Positions 1-63,400 of a stretch of DNA of 64,000 bases are shown piece after piece. Source of the DNA: Hydractinia symbiolongicarpus. Taxonomy: Eukaryota > Cnidaria > Hydrozoa > Anthoathecata > Hydractiniidae. Numbering within the stretch: position 1 is the stretch's first letter; every line of letters starts with the position of its first letter. A model generated the notes under the pieces. That model was given only the letters and a program-made list of their open reading frames with translations, was not told the origin of the DNA and ran no database searches. Made by a program: the position numbers and the translations under genes. The stretch is from NCBI RefSeq assembly GCF_029227915.1, contig NC_079878.1, positions 21,785,501 to 21,849,500 of the forward strand, written 5' to 3'.

Positions 1-730
1 TAAATAAGTAACTAACTTTTTGAAATCGCTTTTGCATGATAGAATCTATTTCAGTGGATTTAATTTAGTTTTTTAAAGCATTTCAACACGCTGGAAGCTA
101 AATCTTTCTTTTACCTTTGCGACAAGCATGCTGTTGGAGTAATACTGTGGCAGTTTTGAAGGCATACTTTTTTTTGTTAAAATTAACATGGCAACTTGTT
201 CCAACTAATTTTTGGTTTTGTGGACGTTGCGAAGTTATGTGGCTGGTGTATTATATATTTTTGGAAAGCTGAAAGGCTCATCTACAAGGTAAGAAAAACG
301 AAAAAACTGTATCAGTACTTCTGAAAGAATGCTAGAGCGCTGAATTCTGGCAATAAAAGTTAGTGTAAAACCTGAAAATTTTAACTCCCTCTTTGACATA
401 ATCTACTGTATGATTTATTGTAGGCATTAAAACTGTTGTAGTTTACTAAGCTAATATTTCACAGAATAACAACACTAAACAACATTCTATATAAACAATT
501 CTGTAACTCTAAATAAGGTTTCTGCGTCTCATACACTACTAACGTAAGCTCGACAAAAAGTCAAATAAAAATGAACTATGCATGTAGTAAGCTAATTAAC
601 TGTTCAATTCTTTTTCTTTCTAGACCAGCTGATCCACCTTTGAAATAATGCAAAGACTAAAGGAGCTTGCAAAGTAATGCTAATATGCAGTTAAAGATAT
701 AACTAGCTATCTAAGCTGTAAGTCTAAAAG
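1..730. other. 3' flank of the RAG1-like gene
   Basis: No coding exon is seen here. A minus-strand AATAAA (plus-strand tttatt at 414-419) lies about 315 bases beyond the stop codon of the RAG1-like gene and is a plausible polyadenylation signal. I looked for inverted terminal repeats matching the far side of the gene and found none by eye. Confidence 0.4.
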
Positions 731-3700
731 TTATTCTTCACGTGCAATTTTTCTTTTTTTAATTTTTGGTTTTAATTGGCTCGATTCAGGATTTACATTA
801 ACAAAATGTTGCTTTAATGTATTTCGTAACCGCTCCACTGGGTTTTTGATGCAGCTGTACCTGCTCGACATCCTGTTGATTTCATGATGCAAGCTTTCTC
901 CACCTTAAAAATGTTATAATTTGACATTTAAGCTAGCTAGCTACACATTTTCTGAAAAATAACACATTTTGGTAAAAAACACAAATTTTGGTGTTACCAG
1001 GTTACAAATTTAAGTGGCTGTTTACCTTGTTCGCCATAAAACCCAAATCCAACATTCCATTTTGCTATGAACTCAGTGACATGATCTTCAAGCATATGCA
1101 GTTTTGGTGAAATATTAACTTTTGGCCAGTTAGTTCGCAGATGCATCATGAATTTATTAATTGAAATTTCTAGAATTATGTACTATATGTATATTATTCT
1201 TTCTTTTTGTTTTGTTTTTGGCACATGAAATTTTAAAAAAAACTTATTTATTATTAAAAAAAGGAACAAGTTTCTCACCTAAAGCCAGTATTTCCTCACA
1301 TGACAGATATTTTGCCGAATTGTAAATGTTATGAACTTCTGCAAAGTAAGTAAATAACATGTCGTACTTATCCATTTCTAAATTCACACTGTGAATAAGC
1401 TGGTCATCATGCTTTTGTGCTGCAACAATCTCTTTAATGCTGGATGTTAAATTTTGGATGTTTTCTTTCTATAAGAGCAAGATTGTTTTTTTAATTTTCT
1501 TTAAATATGTTATTTTTAAATTGCTACATTATTGTTAGTATTAACAAACCTTTAGCAATTTATGTACATGGTTGCCGATAAAACTTTGGCCATGGTAGGC
1601 CTGACGTTCAACACCCATTTTTTGCAGCGTTTTATCTATTGAAGAAGCACAAGGACCAACACCTAAAATAAGATGAACAAACTATTAAACATAGCTTTAG
1701 ATTGGAGAGAATATAAGGCTTGCATCATAAGATCAGAATGAAAATTATAATTTTGGAAAGTTTTTTTTCGGGAATTAAATTTCTTGGAATTTCCAGACAA
1801 AAAAACATTTGCGAATATCACAAAAAATTACTTAGGTAATAAAAATGATCATACCCACTAAAATTCTTTTGTTGTTTCCCAAGGTTGAGATTTCTAATTC
1901 TAATTCTGTGATTTTCTTCTCAGTTTTTATTATACTTTTCTCGTACGTCAGTATATTTCGTTGTAAGCCACCAGATATTACAAGCCAGTTTAACTGATCT
2001 TGCTGGTTTGCTAATTTGGCTTTTTCATCTTCCAGCTTTTGCTGCAAGTCATTTGTTTCTTTAAGGACTTCGATGTAGTCACCATAATCTGAATCCAGTT
2101 CATTGTCTTCTGTTGCCAACAGCAGAGCTATTTTTACATCATAGTCTTGGCAAGAAGACTCAAACATTTTAAACATCTTTTGATATACACCCAAGGAAAT
2201 ATGAAGACCAGGAATACAGACCTAAAATTAGGTGTTTATATAGATTTTATTTTGGGATTATTAAATCAACTTGCAGTGGAAAAGCATAAAAATATGATGT
2301 ATACTTGATCAATAGGTATGTCAAAAAATATGTTGTCAATGACATTATAAAATTCTTTCGCATTTTTAGGGCTCCCACCACTTTCACGGAAATCTGCTAA
2401 ATTTTCTTCAAGTGTCGCCAGTGACCTTTTCTTAAATTTCTTGCGAGTAAACACTGGGATGTTCATTAGTTTTGAGGTAATGTTGCAAAACAAACAGCTG
2501 TGACGCCCTAAACACAAATGTTAAAGTATACATATTTTATTAGAAACTTTTAAAAATAAACCATTTTTAACTATGCATTTCCCATATCTGCGTAGTAAAA
2601 ACCCATTGTTAAACTACAGGAACTTTATGAAGTTGCAAAAAAAGTTCTGTAAAAATTAATTAATTTTGATTATCAACTAGCAACTTGCCCCAGATCTTAA
2701 GTAATTAATATTTACCATTTGCACCAGTTATACCATACATTGCACACAGAAATTCGTAGTCGCCATACATAAATACACGGAATATCGACTCTTTATATTT
2801 GACTTGTTGCAGCATTTTTATTTGTGGTCAAAAATTAATTAATTTTGATTATCAACTAGCAACTTGCCCCAGATCTTAAGTAATTAATATTTACCATTTG
2901 CACCAGTTATACCATACATTGCACACAGAAATTCGTAGTCGCCATACATAAATACACGGAATATCGACTCTTTATATTTGACTTGTTGCAGCATTTTTAT
3001 TTGTGGTCGAAACCGTTCAAGGCAGACTCTTAAGTTTGTTCTTGTGTCTTTCCCTAATTTAAAAAAAAAATATAAAAAATGTTTTGATTTCTACTTTAGA
3101 TCACTTAGATCATTTCTACTTTAGATCACAATTAGACATCACATGCATAGAATTTTGGAAATTCCAGTTTTAATTTTTTTTTTTTCATATTTGTAATATA
3201 TTGCATTAATGTTTGTTACCTTCAAAAATGCTAAACATTATTGTGTTTTCCTTCTTGTTTGGGTTTAGAACATTGCCTATTTGATATGCCATTTTAAAAC
3301 TATTTCCTCCATGGTCTCCACCAATTTTAACATGGATCTCATTGTCAGGAATGAAACTATGTTTTACAAGTAAATTGTGACATTCTAGCTTTTTGAGTTG
3401 ATACAGAATGTGGCCAACTACATTATACAGATACCCCCAGGGCCTAGGTATAACGGATACCCTGTTTCCAACTGATAATTTGGTGAGAGGAGCCAGCTCA
3501 ACTCTCAGTCCTTGGCCTACCCATTCAGCAGCGACACTTCTTGCTTTTTTTTCTGATTCAATTTTTATGTTGAATGTTTTCAACCAACGTGATATTTCAC
3601 GTAGTTGATTCCATGGCATGTTTAAATTTGATTTCATTGCTGTGATGTGATTGGCTGGAATAATGACTTCTGTACCCAAATTTTTAATGATAGTATTTCT

Positions 3701-5375
3701 GTCACTTTCTTCCATAGACTTTAGCAGTGCTGTGGTCTGTTTTGTGACAGATTGGGTTTCTTCACCAGACATCAGATGGATTAACTCCTTGGCTGTATTT
3801 GCTCTTTTCCGCACATTCCTTTCACATGTTTCATCAGAAGACTTGCGAGGAATTCTAATGGGTGTTATTGTCAATGGCTAAAATATGGAACATATGTTAT
3901 TAATTTGTTTTATGTAAAATGTAATATTACTATTAAAATTATCATATTGTTACAGACAATTATGTGTACATTATTTTTAATATAACATAGCATAGTTTTG
4001 TATTTTTGTATAAAGTAGTTATACACATTTTTTATATAAGATCACTTAACGATGTAGACGCCTTAGCATTTAGGGTGGGCACATCAAAATTTTAGTAAAT
4101 CTCCTAATATATAGAATGGTTTTTATTGACCCCCAAAACTTCCTATATTCTGTGACCCCTCTAGCCACTTACTTATATTTATTATTATTTTTAATTATTT
4201 ACTCTGAACATTTTAAAATTTGTCTTGTTCTTATTATGGCTTGTTTTTTGTATAAAAAATGTGTATAAGAAACATTTCACTGGAATTGTAAAAAAATGAT
4301 AACCTAGGTATGCACATATATAGACATATACAAAAGCAACTTATTTTCAGTTTTGATTTCAGCCTTAAAATTGCTAAGATCAAAATTTTTTGCTTTATCA
4401 GCCGTTTGAAAATCAGTTGCTTGTTAAAAAAAGTCAATGTCAAATCACTTTTACTGAGTCCACTCCATACATAAGTAATCTTACTTGTGAACTTCCACTG
4501 GGCAATTGGACAGTTTTATTCGGCAAGTTTGACTGCTGCATTTTTATTCCAACCACATGAGCAATGCATTCTTCTACCTTTTTCGGTACAGGCTTGGAAG
4601 GGCTCAACTGCATCATCTCTAGTGTTGTAAATGACAATGCTGGAGAGCATGTGTGCGATTGTGCAGACAGCAGTTTAAATGAACAACCACATGTTCCCTT
4701 GACAACTCGTGTGTTTAAAATCCTGGAAATGCACAAACCAGGCGAGACATCCCCGGGTGTTGTTGGGATGCTGCAGGTGGGACATCTATTTGAATTTTCC
4801 AACCAATTTGTTAAACACAAGGCACAAAACACGTGGTTACATTGGTTTATCATTAATGGCCTTTTTAAAATATTGCTACACAAAGCACAAATCAGATGTT
4901 CCCAGTTGCCTTCACTGATATTTATGTCTGAGAGAACGTTTCCACTATAGTCAAAAAGTTCAGAGGTTTTTCTGTAAATTTTATTAAGTTCTAGGGGTGT
5001 CCAAGTTTTTTCTGCGGAATCCACAGCTTTGTGTGTTGGGTTACCACCGCCCCTTCTTTTCATAGGTTTGCCACCTCTCTTTTTTTGTGCACTTAATATG
5101 CATGTTTTGCACTCGGTGTCTTTATGTGTATACCATTTAACAGGCACAATAGCGGTAGCTGAGTCACGTTTTAGGACATTACTTATTGTAGCAAAGCACG
5201 AGTGACAGAATTTTTTTGGGTGAATGCCTGCCCGATCAGAATAAAAATCAGCTCTGAAAATACTGTCCAAGTTCTTTATGTGCTCTTGGACAATATGTGA
5301 TCGTCCAGGCAGAGTGTTTCCACATATTCGACACAGCTTGTTCAACCGAGCTAGGTGTAAATCCCCAGTAGCCAT
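731..5375 (-). CDS. RAG1-like protein: RAG1-type zinc/RING N-terminus plus DDE transposase-like core, nine exons
   Basis: Exons read on the minus strand are 5375-4485, 3877-3220, 3053-2895, 2507-2305, 2221-1855, 1662-1550, 1468-1279, 1169-1026 and 903-731. All have GT-AG junctions and compatible phases, total 2,898 bases, and give 965 residues plus stop. Exon 1 has CRICG (15-19), HPKKFCHSC (52-60), W-x2-H and C-x2-C (81-92), a C3HC4 RING (163-201) and a small C/C/H/C cluster (229-243), in the same order as vertebrate RAG1. Exon 2 has GGDHGG (D485). Exon 3 has GDYEFLC (D555), followed by the zinc-type pair CLFC (574-577), as RAG1 has D708 followed by C-x2-C. Exons 8-9 have GEQGGES (E911), like the EGNES around the RAG1 catalytic glutamate. 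The start MATGD was chosen because it opens the conserved region; an in-frame ATG lies 19 codons upstream at 5432. Possible jobs are an active transposase of the RAG1/Transib or N-RAG type, or a domesticated nuclear E3 ligase or DNA-binding protein. The gene structure is well supported; activity is not known. Confidence 0.85.
2651..3008. repeat. 179-bp tandem duplication across exon 3 of the RAG1-like gene
   Basis: Bases 2651-2829 and 2830-3008 read as identical by eye. Each copy holds part of the following intron, the GT donor and the last two thirds of exon 3, including the codon for D555. Only the 3053-2895 copy keeps a splice acceptor, so the 2651-2829 copy is probably an inert partial exon inside the intron. 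Perfect identity means it is either very recent or an assembly artefact. Confidence 0.85.
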
Positions 5376-6794
5376 CTTGAACTTTAACAAAAATTTTGAA
5401 AAAAAAGTACCTAATGTTTGATACAATATCAATTCGTAATGTACTGATACACCTACAGTTCTTTTTTTATTCGTATCTCGTAACTATCTTGGAATGATTT
5501 TTATAAAAATTATCTGTGGGATAACTTCGTATCTGAAAATATTTTGCTTTAAGTTGGCATGGTGTCCACAGTCTTCAAAATGGAGGTTGAAAGTTTTTGT
5601 TTTGTTTTAGCTAGGCAACAAGCGAATAGCTTTGTATTTGAATTAATCTTATTGGTATAGGACTATATTTTATTTAAACCACTTAGTTTCCAGTCCTTAA
5701 GTTGGTTTATGTGATTAAAATGCCTATTAAACCTGGTGCTAGCTACCCTAAAATTTGTTTACTTTTAAGCGCAACTCGCCCCAGTCCTTATTTTAAATTT
5801 TTTTTTGACATGCGCAGTCTGAGTTTCCGAAATCTCGCTAGCTGAAACAGCCGTGAAACAAGCCACTTTTTTACATGACTATTTTTACGTTTGGACAAAA
5901 TTTTTGCTAAAAATCTTTTTGTATCATAACAGCAGTGTAAAAAACCTCCTTAGCTGTCACTTTTAAAGGTGTTTCCACCCAACCGGTGTCAAGAAATTTC
6001 CACTGTCACGTATTATTCTGAAATAATAATAAGTGGTTATCATAATTAGTGGTAATATTAGGTGGTAGTAGAACGCAACCGAAATTTAAGAATTCTCAAT
6101 CTCAAAGAATTAAAACGTTTTTAATAGTGATTTAAGCTTTGTTGAAACAACTTAGAGGTTAAATGGGAGGAATTGCTATAGATATTATAAGATAGAGCAA
6201 CCTAAAGCTATATGACATGATATGTCTGTGAATAACGGATGAGATGAGCTGAAAAGGCGGTTCAGAAAGACATATTAGCGGTCGTTCCAATCTTTCTTAA
6301 GTAATCACTATTACTTATTGGAATTTCATGGTTAAATAAACTTTATTTCGGTAACTTCATGACGTTAGTATTAGCATAGACTCCCAAAATCTTTAAATTA
6401 TGGAAATGTGTTTAACAAACCCTGTTTTGAGAGCATCAAAACAATGTATGTGTTTACTTTTGTACTATTTTACGGATTCACAGGAACGCATCCTGGGATA
6501 ACACGAGAGAAAATTAAAGATATTTGATTGAAAAAGGGCTTAAAACTGTTTTATCAAAGTATTCGTGGATTGTAACGAATGGTAAAGTTATGGATTTGCT
6601 TACTAATAAAAAATTTCGACGTATTTACTTTGTCAGTACCTTTCTCGAATAAAACAGTATAACCGATCTCAACATTATTTTGTTTCAAAACGACAGTAGA
6701 AATGTACATCAGAAACAGAATAAATTTTATAGTCAGGCATGTCTTCAGGACAATTAAGGCAATCTACCAAGAAAATCAAAATCTTTTACTTTTT
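5376..6794. other. noncoding stretch upstream of the RAG1-like gene
   Basis: This AT-rich stretch contains no ORF or splice pattern that I can support. It must contain the RAG1-like promoter on the minus strand, but no clear TATA box was found. No RAG2-like Kelch or PHD sequence is visible. Confidence 0.4.
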
Positions 6795-28480: not shown

Positions 28481-28675
28481 CAAGTAATTTTAGTAGATTT
28501 AGATTTTAAATGTCACATAAATACTGCAGTTGTTGAAAACCTTCAATTTTTTTGGTCATTTATATAATAATGCAGATGTAAGATGCGCACTGCTGTATTG
28601 TTTGATTTTTGATGGACATATATCTGCTACATAAATTAAATGGAATACAGTGGATTCTTCCACGGGAAACAGCTA

Positions 28676-28893
<218 letters not shown>

Positions 28894-28910
28894 CTTGTTC
28901 CAAAACCTAG

Positions 28911-37961
<9,051 letters not shown>

Positions 37962-39599: not shown

Positions 39600-40641
39600 C
39601 GAGATTTCGATGTCTGTTGAAGGGCGCCTAGAGCAAAAGGCATCAGTGTTCAAACAAAATTGGCTGAACTAGCATTGTTCCATCACAAACATCTCCCTAT
39701 ATGCGGCCTCCTCTCCTTGCCCTCGATCCATTAAGAGCCTCGCTTCTATTTTGAAATCCGTAAAGATTAGCGGTCACTTACTTTTGCGTCACTCCAAAGA
39801 TCCAATTCTGTCAACACTCGATCCATCTGTAGAGGCAGGTTTTTGTAAGGTGAGCGATGCAATTGACATAGCTGAGGGTGATTTAAAGTACAAAACCATA
39901 AGAAGTACATCCTGGACGAACCGGTCTTTGCAATTGTTAAGTGGAAGTAAAACCGCCACTTACAAGTACAGAAAGTTGATTGCAAAAACATCGGCTGAGA
40001 TTGACGAGAAAAGCTATCTATCTAAGGCACTCCAACTTCAGGTGCAGAGCTAATAGACAAGATGGGAGAACTACGTTTGATCTTTCATGGAGAAACATCC
40101 TAGCAACTTGTCCTAATCTCTTATCTTTCTGCCTGCAATCCACTTACGATGTTCTGCCCTCACCAAGTAACTTGAGGAGATGGAAAATAAATATAGAACC
40201 ATCTTGTTTCCTATGTCACAAAGAAATTTGCACTTCTGCTCGCATTCTTGGTGCTTGTAAAACTGCTCTTTCCCAGGGAAGATACACCTTTAGACACGAT
40301 TCCGTACTTACCCATTTGGTAGAAACTTTGAAAAAGTTCATTTTTGAGCTCCCTTCTGAACCTTCCAAAAAATCCCACAAACCTTTTTGAGAGCCGGGTC
40401 AAAGGCACATACAAAATCTAAAGTGTCGTGTATGCTGCACCTGGCCAAGTTGATTTCTTTGCAGTGAAAGTAGGAGCAGGAGGTTATTGTGCATGAACCA
40501 CCACTGAATGTTTAAACAGATTGTGCTTCACCAACAAACTTGCTTATTCTACTGCAAATGATCTCGGTAAAATCAGCATGAGGTCTTCTTTTTGTATCTG
40601 GCTGGCACTTGAGTCCAATGTTTGGTCAACTGACTCTTAAA
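39600..40641 (+). mobile_element. decayed retrotransposon C-terminus, restriction-like-endonuclease type, copy 1
   Basis: Broken frames carry the C-terminal landmarks of a non-LTR element with a restriction-like endonuclease: VEGRLEQKASVFKQNWL, AEGDLKYKTIRS, DVLPSPSNLRRW, the zinc-type CFLCHKE, QGRYTFRHDSVL, and VKVGAGGYCA to SSFCIWLALESNVW. These match the order in related elements (CxxC, then RHD, then an EVGxRG-type strand). Several stops and one internal deletion show it is dead. The first ~125 bases lie outside the 5.5-kb duplicated unit. Confidence 0.7.
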
Positions 40642-41059: not shown

Positions 41060-41495
41060 ATCAGGACGTGGCAGATATTTTGTTTGTGGTTGTGGACGCA
41101 CTTAAGGGATTTTCCCCGATTGCTGCAGATAAAATCTCAACTTAAATCTTTATGTTTGTAAGCTGTAACACCTGCCTGTGCACCTCTGTAAATGTCGAAG
41201 TGCAGGACATTTTAACACTACCAATGACATCTAAAATGCAATCTTGTGTCAGAAAATTCTTAGAACCGGAAATTCTAATTGATGGAAACAAGTGGTTTTG
41301 TCCGCAATGCTTTGCACAACATTTGGAAAGACAACAGAGTTGTTGAATGTGCTTCTTTACGTAAGTCTCTCCTACAACTACCTCTTGTCAGTGATACGGA
41401 TACAATATTTCATCAAAACTACTCATTGTTAACAACAATTAACCATTCCGGTACGTTGACTGCAGGTATTTATTGGGCTTATGTTAAGGATCGTG
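41060..41495 (+). pseudogene. ubiquitin-specific protease (USP) fragment, copy 1
   Basis: Two frames joined by a frameshift read QDVADILFVVVDAL, then SCNTCLCTSVNVEVQDIL, CPQC, and HSGTLTAGIYWAYVKD. This is the order of USP catalytic-domain parts: QQDxxEFL box, zinc CxxC pairs and His box. The His box has GIY where active USPs have GHY, so the catalytic His is gone. The N-terminal Cys box is missing. It has no introns and sits next to retroelement sequence, suggesting retroposition. Confidence 0.65.
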
Positions 41496-44400
41496 CCACA
41501 CTGCTCCCAACCTATTCTCATCAACAATTCATGTTATATTCCTTGTTACGTTCGCTGTTGATCCGCTTTCTTTCTTATTCCTTTTTTTCTTTTTCTCTTT
41601 TTTTTTTTTTTTTTAATTTATGGGGGAAGAAAATGTAAACCCGAGCGCTTTTGTATTACCACAGCTGGTTCATTCGTACCAGTTTACCGTTAATACCCAG
41701 GGCGTAAAGAGTTTAGCTCACTCTTCACTGGTAACTTTAAAAAAGCTTAGCAAGGGGTTTGCCTTCAGCTCGTCTTTAAGTGTAGCGACCCCACTTTTTA
41801 CCAAAGTTCAGTAAGGTGCCTAAGTTTACTAATTTGGTCTTCAGGCTTGACAACCCTGCTGTCCTTAGTCAAAGTATTTACAGGCTAGTCCTGTCATGTC
41901 AACCTCTTGTGTAAGGCTGAGTGTTGGGGCCCTGTAACATATGTGGAAAGCTACAGGCAGAGTCACAAGTTCTGGCGCACAAGAGGGCTTTATTTAGTTC
42001 TTTTACATATTTTTATATATTTAACCTACCCATTTTTTTCTATTTGTGTTCTATCTGTAACCAGTCTGGTTTATTTTGTTAGTTCTGCCGTGTGTCGTAT
42101 TGTTTGTGATGAAGGATTATTTTCTCTATAAGCATATTCTCAAGGAATAGTTACGCGTGTTGAACAGTACTCATGCTTCTAAGAAGCTTGAACGCGTATT
42201 CAGCACCTTCTTCTGAGAGCGTAATCCCAGTTTTATTTTCATCCACCGAACCTGTAGACAAGATACTTCAGTGCAGATTGGTGCACTGTAAACCTTTTTC
42301 ATCAAGATCTTTTTTTGATAGACCAAATTAATGCAATTTTTGAATTCTATGAAAAATTTTAGGCGGAAAGGAGGCACAATTTTAAAATTTGAGATTAGTA
42401 AAGCTAAAGATGTCATCCTTCAAAAAGTCGTGGGCGTTTCTGGATGGCAGAAGACATACCTGAAATCTCAGTTATGAGTAATGATTTTCAAATTTAGGCA
42501 ATTTATTGCGAAGGAATTGAGCTTCCCAAGCGAAGCCAGTGAAGTGATAACATGGAGCACGTTTGCTACGCGAAGTTAAGCAAGAGAATTATTAAGATTC
42601 TCAAAATTTTGATAGAAAAAAAATCATTTAAAAATTTAGGGTAAAGAAATAGTACTGATATTTTTGCACAAAAAGCTAGGATATTTTTTGTTTAGTAGAA
42701 CAAATAAGTTTGGACTGAGGGGCTAAAGTAGAAGTCTAGTAGAAAAGCCAAGAAGTACGGCTCGTCTTGCTTTTAATACTATTTCAATTGTATTTAATTC
42801 AAATTAATAGTATTAAAACTATTTTCGTTTTCTGAAATAATTTATTGGTAGTCCTGTCTCTAATTGCCTTTATTTTTTTGTTGATTTGCTTTTTCTCGAA
42901 ATCTGAGTTGGATTGGAAAATTTCTGTACCTACACTCTTTGTGGGAAGACTAAAGGAATTTGTATATTTATAACGCGCCGAGCTGTGTTTTAACTTATCG
43001 TTTCTAAGAATACAAAATAGCTAAGAGTACAAAATTATCGATTTTAGTTGGTTTTATCTAGATCAAAGTAAGTCTTACACACACGAAAGGTAGCTAGCTC
43101 TGTTTTGCAGAAAATAATTAAAAGTAATTTGTAGAATAAATATGGAGTAGCTATATTATAAAATGACTGATAGCCAACTATAGGAGAACCTGTAGCTAGA
43201 GCGCAGATAAAAAACAACTAGCTCTGGGTGTTACCGATAACAGACCAACCGTTTTTCATCACAATTTTATATTTGTTAAGTCGGTAATCAGTTACAGTAA
43301 TTAAAATACAATATCCAATTTTGCTATAAAACCAGTAAAAATGTATTTGGCAATAGGAATGAGTTGTCCGTGGGCACTCCCTGAGAACAAGGTTTAAAAC
43401 AACATAGAAACCGTCAATTAAAAAAAACTCTAAGGATGGGCAAAAGCTGCACACGTCCTTCAAAAGGTGTGGGCGTTATCGAAACTTCTTGTTTCTTTAC
43501 AATCTTCTCAGGAATACCAGACCAAGAGTTTCTTGTCCACCGCCCACATGTGTTTAAGCACCCACATAAAGAAGCTCATTATTTTCAAAATTGTTTTTGT
43601 TAAAACTACCATTTTATTTACAATAGACTTCTCGTCAGTCATTTTCTTTATTAAACGCAGAACCCTCTTCCTATTCAAGGTGCTATTCTATAGCAAAGAA
43701 CTTAACAAAGGCCATGTCTCAGCATAGTTTTCAATAGGGTCTGACTTCAAAATATGCTTTACTTGACCTTTGCGAAAATGTGAATTAAGCCTCAAGAGGA
43801 AGTTTATGACTTGTATATTTTTGTATTCGTGTCTCTAGCTTCTAAAACTTTGTGTTGCGCATTATTTAAGCAAACTGGATGATGCCCAGCAATAGACATG
43901 TAAAATTTACTCTGGCTTATTGCATTGTTGCTGGTTAAACAGAAAAAAAAGAATTACGAAATTTTTTCGCATGTATTCTCTAATGTAGGACAATAAACTG
44001 TGTTTTGATTTCCTTTGGCCTTGCATCGATAAAATTCTAAGAAAAATACACTTTTAGAATGACATTGCCATAATATGAAACTGTCTGTGTCCTTGTTGGT
44101 ATGGTTGGAACATTTTGTCTACCTACCACCTAAGAAAAAACAATGATTTGATTATTATGCTTTTGTTAACTTCCTGAAAATGCCATGTGGTAAAGCTCTA
44201 GCAATTTTTTAAATGAAATTTGCGCTTCTCTTCAGGTCACTCTCACACATTTCAGAAACTTAAACACAGACACAGAAAATAACTGTTAATAAGAAAACTG
44301 GTGCTTTGGTGACCAAAAGTAAATATTTTTGTATCATTCTATTTCTTATTCTTTTAAAACACTCATTGGTCCACACAAACGTTTCTTAATTCTATAGGCA

Positions 44401-46617: not shown

Positions 46618-47060
46618 CAGCAGGACGTAGCAGATACTTTGTTTGTGGTTGTGGACGCACTTAAGTGATTTTCCCCGATTGCTGCAGATAAAATCTCAAC
46701 TGAAATCTTGAAATGTTCGTAAGCTGTAACACCTGCCTGTGCACCTCCGTAAATGTCGAAGTGCAGGACATTTTAACACTACCAATGACATCTAAAATGC
46801 AATCTTGTGTCAGCAAATTCTTAGAACCGGAAATTCTAATTGATGGAAACAAGTGGTTTTGTCCGCAATGCTTTGCACAACATCTGGAAAGACAACAGAG
46901 TTGTTGAATGTGCTTCTTTACGTAAGTCTCTCCTACAACTACCTCTTGTCAGTGATACGGACACAATATTTCATCAAAACTACTCATTGTTAGCAACAAT
47001 TAACTATTCCGGCACGTTGACTGCAGGTATTTATTGGGCTTATGTTAAGAATCGTGCCAC
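46618..47060 (+). pseudogene. ubiquitin-specific protease fragment, copy 2
   Basis: Same arrangement as copy 1, with a fuller QQDVADTLFVVVDAL box. It has the same GIY change in the His box and the same frameshift between the CPQC segment and the next, so both defects predate the duplication. Confidence 0.65.
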
Positions 47061-50000
47061 AATTTTGTCGTTCGCTGTTGATCCGTCTTCTTTCTTTTTC
47101 CTTTTTTCTTTTTTCTCTTTTTCTTTCTTTTTTTTAATTTATGGGGGAGGAAAATGTAAACCCGAGCGCTTTTGTATTACCCCAGCTGGTTTATTCGTAC
47201 CAGTTTACCGTTAATACACAGGGCGTAAAGAGTTTAGCTCACTCTTAACTGCTAACTTTAAGAAAGCTTAGCAAGGGGGTTTGCCTTCAGCTCAAGAGGG
47301 CTTTATTTAATTCTTTTACATATTTTTATATATTTAACCTACCCATTTTTTTCCATTTGTGTTCTATCTGTAACCAGTCTCGTTTATTTGGTTAGTTTAG
47401 TTAGTTCTGCCGTGTGTCGAATTGTTTGTGATAAGGTATTATTTTCTCTATAAACATTTTCTCAAGGAATAATTACGCGTCTATGTTGAACAGTACTCAT
47501 GCTTCTAAGAAGCTTGAACGCGTATTCAGCACCTTCTTCTGAGAGCGTAATCCCAGTTTTATTTTCATCCACCGTCACTGTAGACAAGATACTTCAGTGC
47601 AGATTGGTGCACTGTAAACCTTTTTCATCAAGACCTTTTTTTTGAAGACCAAATTAATGCAATTTTTGAATTCTTTGAAAAATTTTAGGCGGAAAGGAGG
47701 CTTAATTTTAAAATTTGAGATTAGTAACGCTAAAGATATCATCCTTCAAAAAGTCACGGGCGTTTCTGGATGGCAAAAGACATACCTGAAATCTCAGTTA
47801 TGAGTAGTGATTTTCAAATTTAGTCAATTTATTGCGAAGCTTCCCAAGCGAAGCCAGTCAAGCGATATTATGGCGAACGTTTGCTACGCGAAGTATACCA
47901 ACAGAATTATTAAGATTCCCAAAATTTCGAAAGAAAAAAAAATCATATAAAATTAGGGTAAAGAAATAGTACTGATATTTTTGCACAAAAAGCTAGGATA
48001 TTTTTTGTTTAGTGAAACAAATAAGTTTGGACTGAGGGGCTAAAGTATAAGTCTAGTAGAAAAGCCAAGAAGAACGGCTCGTCTTGCTTTTAATGCTATT
48101 TTAATTGTATTTAATTCAAAATAATAGTATTAAAACTATTTGCGTTTTCTGAAATAATTTATTGGTAGTCCTGTCTCTAATTGCCTTTACTTTTTTGTTG
48201 ATTTGCTTTTTCTCGAAATCTGAGTTGGATTGGAAAATTTCTGTAACTACACTCTTTGTGGGAAGACTAAAGGAATTTGTATATTTATAACGCGCCGAGC
48301 TGTGTTTTAACTTATCTTTTTTAAGAATACAAAATAGCTAAGAGTACAAAATTATCGATTTTAGTTGGTTTTATCTATATCAAAGTAAGTCTTACACACA
48401 CGAAAGGTAGCTAGCTCTGTTTTGCAGAAAATAATTGAAAGTAATTTGTAGAATAAATATGGAGTAGCAATATTATAAAATGACTGATAGCCAACTATAA
48501 GAAAACCTGTAGCTAGAGCGCCGATAAAAAACAACTAGCTCTGGGTGTTACAGGTCACAGACCAACTATATTTATTTACTCGATAACCAGTTACAGTAAT
48601 TAAAATAAAATATCCAATTTTACTATCAAACCAGCAACAATATATTTGGCAATTAGAATTAGTTGTCCGTGGGCTCTCCCTGAGAACAAGGTTTAAAACA
48701 ACACAGATACCGTCATTTAAAAAAAAAACTCCTAGGATGGGCCAAAGCTACACACGTCCACCAAAAGGTGTGGGCGTTATCGAAACTTCTTGTTACTTTA
48801 CAATCTTCTCAGGAATACCAGACCAAGAGTTTCTTGCCCACCGCCCACATGTGTTTAAGCACCCACATAAAGAAGTTCATTATTTTCAAAATTATTTTTG
48901 TAAAAACTACCATTTTATTTACAATAAACTTCTCGTCAGTCATTTTCTTTATTAAACTTCCTACCCAAGGTGCTATTCTATAGCCAAGAACTTAATAAAG
49001 GCCATGACTCAGCATAATTTTCAATAGGGTTTGATTTCACAATATGCTTTACCCTTTGCGAAAATGTGAATTAAGCATCAAGAAGAAGTTTGACTTGACT
49101 TTGACTTGTATATTTTTGTATTCGTGTCTCTAGCTTCTATAACTTTGTGTCGCGCATTATTTAGGCAAACTGGATGGTGCCCACCAATAGGCATGTAAAA
49201 TTTACTCTGGCTTATTGCATTGTTGTTGGTTGAACAGAAAAAAAAAGAATTATGAAATTTTTCTGCGTGTTTTCCTTAATGTGTCTAAGAGAATAATCTG
49301 TGTTTTGATTTCCTTTGGCCTTGCATCGATAAAATCCTAAAAAAAAACACTTTTAGAATGACATTACCATATTATGAAACTGTCTGTGCCCTTGTTAGTA
49401 TGGTTGGACATTTTATCTACCTACCAACTAAGAAAAAACAATGATTTGGTTATTATGATTTTGTCAACTTCCTGAAAATGCCATGAGGGAAAGCTCTACC
49501 AATTTTTTAAATAAAATTTGCGCTTCTCTTCAGATAACTCTTTCACATTTCAGAAACTTGAACACAGACACAAAAAATAACTGCTAATAAGAAAACTAGT
49601 GCTTTGCTGACCAAAAAGACAATGTTAGTTTCATGTAGCCATCTCACAATTAATGCAAGTATATTTTTTATCATTCTATTTCTTATTCTTTTAAAACACT
49701 CATTGTTCTACACAAACGTTTCTCAATTCTATAGGCATTATACCTTTTACGTCGGACACCTAAGTGCGTATGTGAAAATTAGCTGATTAGAACAAAACTA
49801 TTCACCTGGGAGAGATATAGCTTAAAAATTTACCGGCCAGATCAATGATTACATGATGAAATTTTAATTTTTGAAACATTTTTTGTCTTGCAAGCAACCA
49901 AGAACGTTCTTGTTAGCAGCTTTCACTTAAATAACATTTTGATATTTTATATCCAACGCAAGTTAGAGCAAAGTGAACATTGTTTAAGTAATGAAATACA

Positions 50001-60400: not shown

Positions 60401-63400
60401 TAAGTTGCGCTACATCACCTTGCAGTATGTCCTTCTCACGTTTCTTGGCTTTATGATCGTATTGGGTTTAAAAAGACAAAAATAGTTCAAAAACACATTT
60501 GTCATCTTTACACATTGGTTTTTAATTTTTTGACAAAGAATGAATTACACATATATAATCAGTACCACATCAAAGAATTGCACTTATTTTTTTCGTGTGA
60601 TGCGTCTTGTTATAAATACTTTTGTAGCTAATCTGATAGTCAAATTGTTTTTTCTTTTATCAATTGTATATTCTAGAAAATCAAAAGCGATATTTGTAAC
60701 AGATACTACTTAAACTATCCTGTTTTTACAGTTGTTTTCCATTTGTTAACCCTTTAACTGTTTTAGCTGTACACGGAATTTGGGGCGAATGGTCGTCGTA
60801 TTCAGCATGTCCAGTCACCTGCGGAGGTGGAATTAAGACAAGAACACGTCTATGCAACAATCCCGCACCTGCAAATGGTGGGAATCATTGCATTGCAAGC
60901 AACACAGAACAAATTAATTGCGCTACATTACCTTGCAGTATGTATTTCAAATATATCTCTTATAATAATACGCTAAGTGTGTCTGTCTGTCACTTTTGCA
61001 AAGTGGATTACATTCTTCAAAATTTTCTTTAACAAATTCTATAAAACATCGCCTATAAAATTGTTCTGTAATTTACCAAACTTTACCGATAAAATAGTAT
61101 TGACGTCAACGGAAAGTTAATTAAGATTAGTGAAGCCATTACAATGCACTTAAAACTTTGAGGCCAAATAACTTGGAAACGAGGTGGTGACGTCAATGTT
61201 TTTTCACCGCGTGGGTAACTAGGGACCACCTAGGATCAATTTGGGTAATTTTTTCAAACCCGGATCCCCGAATCCGTTTCGGAATGGACGGGTTGATGAC
61301 GTCATTAAAAAACCTTTAAACCCTAATATCTCTGCAACTGTTTGTCAAAAGTACATGATCCTATACATTTTCTTGCTCAGCGTTTCAAGATCTATACGAT
61401 AAAGGCAACAGACATACGCATTTCTGAAAAAAAATTTTGTGTTCTGACATGTCTCTGCTGACATCATCAAAATTTAAATGACGGTTGTTTTTCTCTGCTA
61501 TCCTGCCTAAGTGGATTTTTCCACGGGCCTTATCGACTAGTCTATATAATAATACGCCAGTTCTATCTGTCTGTCACTTTTGCAAAGTGGATAAAATTTC
61601 TTTGAATATCGCCTATAAATTTGTTCTGTAAATTAGCAAACTTTGACGTTAAAGCAATATTGACGTCAAAGGAAAGTATATTAAGATTAGTGAAGCCATT
61701 GCATTGCACTTTTAAATTTAAGGCTTAATAACTTGGGAACGGGTGGAAATAACTGACGTCATCTCCTGCTTGAGTAACTAGGGACTACCTGGGACCAATT
61801 GGGGTAGGTTTTCCAAACCTGGGTCACCGAATCCGTTTCGGAATGAACGGGTTAATGACGTCATCAAAAAACCTTTAAACCCTAATATCTCTGCATCCGT
61901 TTGTCAAAAGTACACGATCCTATATATTTTCTTGATCAGCGTTTCAATATCTATACGATGAAGGCAACAGGCATACAAATTTCTGAAATTTTTTTTTTGG
62001 TGTTCTGACAGGTCTCTGCGGATGTCAGCAAAATTTAAATGACGGTTTTTTTTTCTCTGTATAATAATACGTCAGTTCTGTCTGTCTGTTTGTCTGTGAC
62101 TTTTGCAAAGTGGATAAAATTTCTTTGATAAAGTCTATAAAACATCGTCTATAAGTTTCTTCTGTAAATTACTAAACTTTGACGTTAAAGCAATATTGAC
62201 GTCAAAGGAAAGTATATTAAGATTAGTGAAGCCATTGCATTGCACTTTTGAATTTTAGGCTAAATAACTTGTAAACGGGTGGAGATAACTGACGTCATCT
62301 CCTGCGTAGGTAACTAGGGACCACCTGGGACCAATTTGGGTAAGTTTCCCAAACCTGGATCCCCAAATCTGTTTCGGGAATGGACGGGTTGATGACGTCA
62401 CCAAAAAACTTGCAAACCCTAATATCTCTGCAACCATTTGTCAAAAATACGCGATCCTATACATTTTCTTGATCAGCGTTTCAAGACCTATACAATGAAC
62501 GCAGCAGGTATACAAATTTCTAAAAAAAATTTTTGGGGGGTTTGACTGGCCATTGCTGACTTCAGCAAAATTTTAAAACCCTCATTTCTCATTAATCGCT
62601 TATCAAAAAGACATGATCGCATACATTTTCTTGGTCAGCGTATTAACCTCTGCACAGTACAGGCAAAGAATAAACTAAATTTCGCCAAAAATTTTTGTAA
62701 TTGCACTGCTGACGTCAGCAAAAAATCTAAAACAACCTATTGTTCCATTGTCCTTCTGCCTAAGTGGATTTTTCCACGGGCCTTATCGACTAGTTCTGTA
62801 ATAATTACATTGAGTTTAGAAAGAAAAAATAATCTATAAAGCATTTCATGAAGCTTTTTTTTTCATTTTAAATCAAGCAGTAATATAATGAGTCATTGCA
62901 CATCTTCACCCTGTGGTGTTTATCTATGATCACCCTGTGAAATCCAATAATATTTTTTTATTTTATCATTAACTTATTCTAAAGCTTGGTTTCCATCTGG
63001 CGTTAATTCGCGTTAAGCAGGTGCGCGGCCTAAATATCAATGTTTTCATATCTTTTTTGCGATTTTTCACTTTTGTATAACAGAATTGAACATATTATGC
63101 GTGCAAAAGCTATTTCTGCAAACATTTTTTTTAACAGCGGGCAAAAAAAGGTTATATATTAATTCTTCTTAAAGATGGTTATATTCTCCATATTGCCCTC
63201 GTTTTACAAAAAAATCACAATTCCACAATCTTACCGTTTTCTTTTTTGATTTTGCCTTGTTCTTAGGTTGCAACCCTGATTTCGGTCATTTAATGTCTAG
63301 ATGAGTTTGCATTGCGAAATGATTTCATATGATTTATATAACGAATTTTAAACTCTCCTTCCATTTAACGTTAATCCGTGTATGTGATAGTTTCATTTAT

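Follow-up and report, generated by a model that had tools for sequence, protein, structure and literature searches.

A probable Chapaev transposon of Hydractinia symbiolongicarpus with a RAG1-type N-terminus in its transposase and unequal ends

A 64,000-nucleotide stretch of the Hydractinia symbiolongicarpus genome (NCBI RefSeq assembly GCF_029227915.1, contig NC_079878.1, positions 21,785,501 to 21,849,500 of the forward strand; hereafter the window) carries near its start a nine-exon gene on the minus strand. This gene very probably (about 0.93) codes for the transposase of an autonomous DNA transposon of the Chapaev type (CMC group) that is young and probably still mobile. The Chapaev kind itself was already known, and the new point of this element is that its two ends are unequal. 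The element features inside the window are as follows.

1..5855, minus strand: window part of the Chapaev-type transposon, with boundaries common to 20/20 fetched copies
5842..5855, minus strand: 5' outer terminal inverted repeat of 14 bp, CACGGCTGTTTCAG in minus-strand reading, the same in 20/20 copies, with its inverted counterpart at the opposite end
5856..5859, no strand: 4-bp target site duplication (TSD), GTTT in minus-strand reading; equal 4-bp repeats in 20/20 copies, second copy outside the window
5809..5829, minus strand: inner terminal block CGGAAACTCAGACTGCGCATG, at offset 26 at the 5' end; its 3' partner, with offset 16, falls beyond the window
2651..3008, minus strand: exact 179-bp tandem duplication (2651-2829 / 2830-3008), giving an extra partial exon 3 inside intron 3

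The whole element is 5,953 bp long (G000:C4:21785403-21791355). Because the window stops 98 bases short of the 3' end, which lies to the left of the window start, a search for terminal repeats within the window alone found none. A genome search with exon 2 listed 145 matches (150 of 171 candidates were scored). Among the matches listed were 22 full-length rows at 100% (rounded, counting the window copy); a second family contributed 16 at 54-56%, and many others were diverged or broken. Twenty of the 22 full-length rows were fetched as copies, and all of them displayed the termini CACGGCTGTTTCAG..CTGAAACAGCCGTG, which are of the 5'-CAC..GTG-3' type. Copies L016 and L017, about 15 kb apart, share flanks and target duplication and are probably a segmental duplication that followed insertion, so that 19 distinct insertions were counted. 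The copies are 5,548-6,132 bp long, with a mean pairwise divergence of 0.00076 per site; 27 of 6,133 columns are variable. This is a very young family whose members are mostly intact. Part of the length variation is accounted for by the number of 179-bp units, which was one in L010, L012, L015, L020 and L021, three in L016 and L017 and two in the other 13 copies. Since copies hold one, two or three units, an assembly artefact is an unlikely source of the duplication.

The gene had been predicted from the window alone as an intact spliced gene joining a RAG1-type N-terminus to a DDE-like core. Rebuilt letter by letter from the minus strand, its exons are:

4485..5375, minus strand: exon 1, RAG1-type N-terminal zinc (Chapa) domain at about residues 1-100, RING at 163-201, further zinc cluster at 229-243
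3220..3877, minus strand: exon 2, pre-catalytic region, D485 (KIGGDHGG), presumed from alignment to be the first catalytic Asp, and most of DUF1280 (373-540)
2895..3053, minus strand: exon 3, D555 (GDY), presumed second catalytic Asp
2305..2507, minus strand: exon 4, CxxC (C574, C577), counterpart of RAG1 C727/C730
1855..2221, minus strand: exon 5, CIPGLH with H644, counterpart of RAG1 H795; helical insertion
1550..1662, minus strand: exon 6
1279..1468, minus strand: exon 7
1026..1169, minus strand: exon 8, HxxxxH (H885, H890), counterpart of RAG1 H937/H942
728..903, minus strand: exon 9, coding 903-731, stop 730-728; presumed catalytic Glu E911

The nine exons gave 965 residues with 0 internal stops, and the introns were GT-AG in 8/8 cases. 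The motif around E911, GEQGGES, straddles the exon 8/9 junction. In an alignment of seven relatives, the 10 residues on either side of the junction were free of gaps in 7/7 relatives at junctions J2 and J3, in 6/7 at J4 and J6 and in 5/7 at J1, J7 and J8, the failing relatives being gapped or truncated there. No relative (0/7) aligned cleanly at J5, which lies in a variable linker. One protein, P0015, is 99% identical to the window protein over exon 1; it provides no splice evidence because it reads through the donor unspliced. The 965-residue frame was open in 17/20 fetched copies, which are not 17 independent tests because the copies descend recently from one element. The nine-exon, stop-free model of 965 residues was thus confirmed by the rebuild, the intron borders and the relatives aligning at seven of the eight junctions.

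The predicted RAG1-type order of N-terminal motifs was also verified. The zinc motifs were located at residues 15 (CRIC), 57 (CHSC), 89 (CKTC), 163 and 184 (CALC), 229 (CGC) and 241 (HTC). A Pfam scan matched RAG1_imp_bd (PF12560) at 38-103 (E 7e-6), RING at 163-201 (E 2e-11) and the DUF1280 (PF06918) DDE core at 373-540 (E 4.3e-15). In a PDB sequence search RAG1 matched residues 38-229 (E 4e-11), and there was no significant match for the core of the window protein. The family profile retrieved the RAG1 N-terminal structure 21wb_A from PDB (E 6e-14), and the profile of the N-terminal part matched RAG1 with 98.5% probability; the Chapa domain was assigned through PF12560 and this match. In the core, C574xxC577 and H885x4H890 sit between D555 and E911, forming C(2)C and H(4)H modules.

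A search with the protein found 7 proteins and one with its alignment 10, 15 different ones in all. In alignment A2 (14 relatives, E<=10), DUF1280 was present in 14/14, the RAG1 N-terminal model in 5/14 and RING in 2/14. According to precomputed domains, P0005 has the RAG1 N-terminal domain, RING and DUF1280. P0006 has the RAG1 N-terminal and DUF1280 domains and aligns across RING; its 'scpid/scgid' labels suggest a calcareous sponge. The name of P0010 gives Branchiostoma belcheri and that of P0011 Hydractinia.

The assignment to Chapaev was made by published hallmarks. As described in the literature consulted, Chapaev elements have 3-4 bp TSDs and invariable 5'-CAC/GTG-3' ends (PMC4079192). 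DUF1280 is given as representing Chapaev transposases, in the same clade as RAG1 (PMC3985635), and C(2)C and H(3-4)H as typical of the wider group (PMC12730594). Two Chapaev subgroups are reported to have a Chapa domain followed by RING (PMC4411706, citing Kapitonov and Jurka 2007), and the same source infers that Chapa, RING and the core were already together in the common ancestor with RAG1. Every Chapaev feature that was checked was found in the window element, namely the 4-bp TSD, CAC..GTG termini, DUF1280, C(2)C/H(4)H and a Chapa-type domain with RING, which makes it alike to the Chapaev elements with Chapa and RING. The comparison with known Chapaev elements was made on published descriptions, and the window family was assigned to no named Repbase entry.

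Several observations weigh against this reading or weaken its base. A full-length exon match was missing in 3/20 copies (exon 1 in L012 and L019, exon 9 in L023). The core of the family profile reached ProtoRAG in PDB only at E 0.15, and the core-only profile matched RAG1 weakly (probability 4.2%, E 0.0098, 30.7 bits, with nine controls at no more than 25.6 bits). The RAG1 core fold was found in a structure model of the core of relative P0001 and not of the window protein; in the VIA row 5zdz_C, residues 176-811 of this model lie on RAG1 393-1007 with a root-mean-square deviation of 11.9, reaching the RAG1 nonamer-binding domain. The original prediction that the protein unites both halves of RAG1 was upheld in part. 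The N-terminus is homologous to RAG1, as the profile comparison bore out, and the structure comparison revealed the RAG1 fold in the model of P0001 only; the core is DUF1280/Chapaev, its profile match was weak, and it gave no PF12940 match.

If the gene were instead a RAG1-like gene (RAGL/ProtoRAG or TransibSU), a true relative of RAG1 with a RAG2 partner, the same domain order, the RAG1-homologous N-terminus, the CAC termini and the RAG1 fold in the core of P0001 would all be expected. We consider this very improbable, because the TSD is 4 bp and not 5 bp in 20/20 copies, and no match to PF12940, the RAG1 core family, was found at E<=1 (filters drop most matches above 0.1) although the control P0093 scored 1256 bits. 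There was also no RAG2-like gene seen in the element, since no other sense stop-to-stop frame of at least 100 aa exists besides the transposase exons and the coding region leaves just 480 and 825 bases on its two sides. ProtoRAG is described with 5-bp duplications (PMC8289069), as are Transibs (PMC8355894). The window element differs from ProtoRAG/RAGL in its TSD, in having no RAG2L seen and in an end asymmetry of 10-11 bp, not 4, and from vertebrate RAG1 in being mobile, with a 4-bp TSD, no RAG2 seen and a core undetected by the Pfam RAG1 model. Membership in Transib (HzTransib) was rejected by the N-terminal domains, which Transib is without, and by the 4-bp TSD. N-RAG-TP of Aplysia is described as a mobile element with the RAG1 N-terminal part only (Panchin and Moroz 2008, via PMC8355894 and PMC2996935); the window element resembles it in having a RAG1 N-terminus-like protein in a mobile element and, judged by this description, is set apart by its DDE core. 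Had such a transposon given rise to an immobile host gene by domestication, the intact nine-exon frame and the missing terminal repeats within the window would fit. We judge this very improbable as well, given a 3' end 98 bases outside the window and many near-identical copies with separate target duplications; for the window copy it is refuted by the shared boundaries, terminal repeats and TSDs of the copies.

The ends of this Chapaev-type element (family A) were compared with those of other families of the same genome. At least four further Chapaev-type families (B-E) were found at L029-L037, and the compared B and C copies were at least 99.9% alike. Families B-E, delimited from two complete copies each, measure 4,549 bp (B), 5,355 bp (C), 5,678-5,680 bp (D) and 5,754-5,773 bp (E). 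They have CACG..CGTG ends and a 4-bp TSD in 8/9 fetched copies; for L033, the ninth, no ends were found. For one copy per family, 5' and 3' bases 8-60 were compared by the best ungapped 20-mer and against 600 random pairs of the same composition. The inner block of family A was identical between ends at 19/20 positions at a shift of +10, followed by E with 18/20 at +10 and C and D with 17/20 at +11, and in each case 0/600 random pairs reached the score. Family B speaks against a general rule, its best match of 13/20 at +4 being reached by 81/600 random pairs and the +10 shift giving 12, so that its asymmetry is not significant. A GCGCATG box was seen at the ends of all five families, exactly in 7/10 ends and with a single mismatch in 3/10. 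It starts at 5'/3' offsets of 40/30 (A), 41/30 (C), 41/30 (D), 40/30 (E) and 36/32 (B). In A, C, D and E the long end is upstream of the transposase. An offset of 10-11 bp is about one turn of DNA, like the difference between the 12 and 23 spacers of RAG1. Across A-E, the sequence of the inner box comes close to the perfect palindrome GCGCATGCGC.

Between families, the spacers that separate the outer from the inner block agree at 6-9 of 18 positions (5') and 1-6 of 7 (3'). Because they have largely diverged and four families still have an offset of 10-11, spacing seems better kept than sequence, which suggests a function. The families are related and thus are not independent observations. The inner block might instead be a host transcription-factor site whose spacing has no meaning for transposition: GCGCATGCGC resembles an NRF1 site, the box recurs in all five families, and the 5' end is where a promoter site would be of use. 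This appears rather unlikely, as the block shared by both ends of one family extends past the palindrome, the extended block is family-specific (CGGAAACT in A, CGAATTTA in C, GCGGACATTCAG in D, AAAGTGT in E), as expected if it co-evolves with its own transposase, and the 3' box is at 30 in 4/5 families. The spacing difference could also be a functionless accident inherited by all families from one element with an indel. The relatedness of the families, the residual likeness of the 5' spacers and family B without asymmetry agree with such an accident, the divergence of the spacers around a constant offset does not, and we regard it as unlikely too. In the accessible literature on Chapaev and on asymmetric terminal inverted repeats or recombination signal sequences (RSSs), Repbase Reports excluded, no report of an end asymmetry of about 10 bp in Chapaev was found. 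It is a tentative suggestion that Chapaev transposases act on ends that differ by one helical turn (box at about 30 versus 40-41 bp) without RAG2, in which case the pairing of long with short ends by one turn would be ancient in the group and would not have arisen first in the RAG lineage or in vertebrates.

Two transposase molecules would bind the inner blocks, perhaps via the segment aligned to the RAG1 nonamer-binding domain. With the 5' inner block set one helical turn deeper into the element than its 3' counterpart, the transposase may synapse one long with one short end, somewhat like RAG1 pairing 12 and 23 RSSs. A RAG1-like RNase H-fold DDE site (D485, D555, E911, with the zinc module C574/C577/H885/H890) would then cut at CAC, and the element would be pasted into its target with a 4-bp stagger. 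Judged by their match to non-core RAG1, the Chapa and RING domains probably contribute to nuclear import and dimerisation and provide ubiquitin ligase activity.

Elsewhere in the window, thrombospondin type 1 (TSP1) domains were found at 32653-32988 and 60700-61029, with a similar frame near 29 kb; a large host gene with many TSP1 domains may have its exons here. A long simple repeat at 28606-29143 translates as Tyr/Ile runs. Two near-alike frames at 41279-41635 and 46840-47211, with a weak ubiquitin hydrolase (UCH) match under the Pfam cut-off, are probably a duplicated segment, and a weak zf-RVT match under the cut-off at 39980-40387 is perhaps a remnant of a LINE-type (long interspersed element) reverse transcriptase.

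The origin of V(D)J recombination hinges on how RAG1 gained its N-terminus, RING and the 12/23 rule. Transib ends are described as mostly symmetric, few being 12/23-like (PMC8289069, PMC8355894), and some Transibs are given as the only other known case of transposition with 12/23 asymmetry (PMC8355894). In the window element, whose copies are very recent, whose frames are open and whose ends are defined, a RAG1-type N-terminus and RING occur together with a hint of a 12/23-like rule. If active, the element could show directly whether paired unequal ends and a RAG1-like N-terminus predate RAG.
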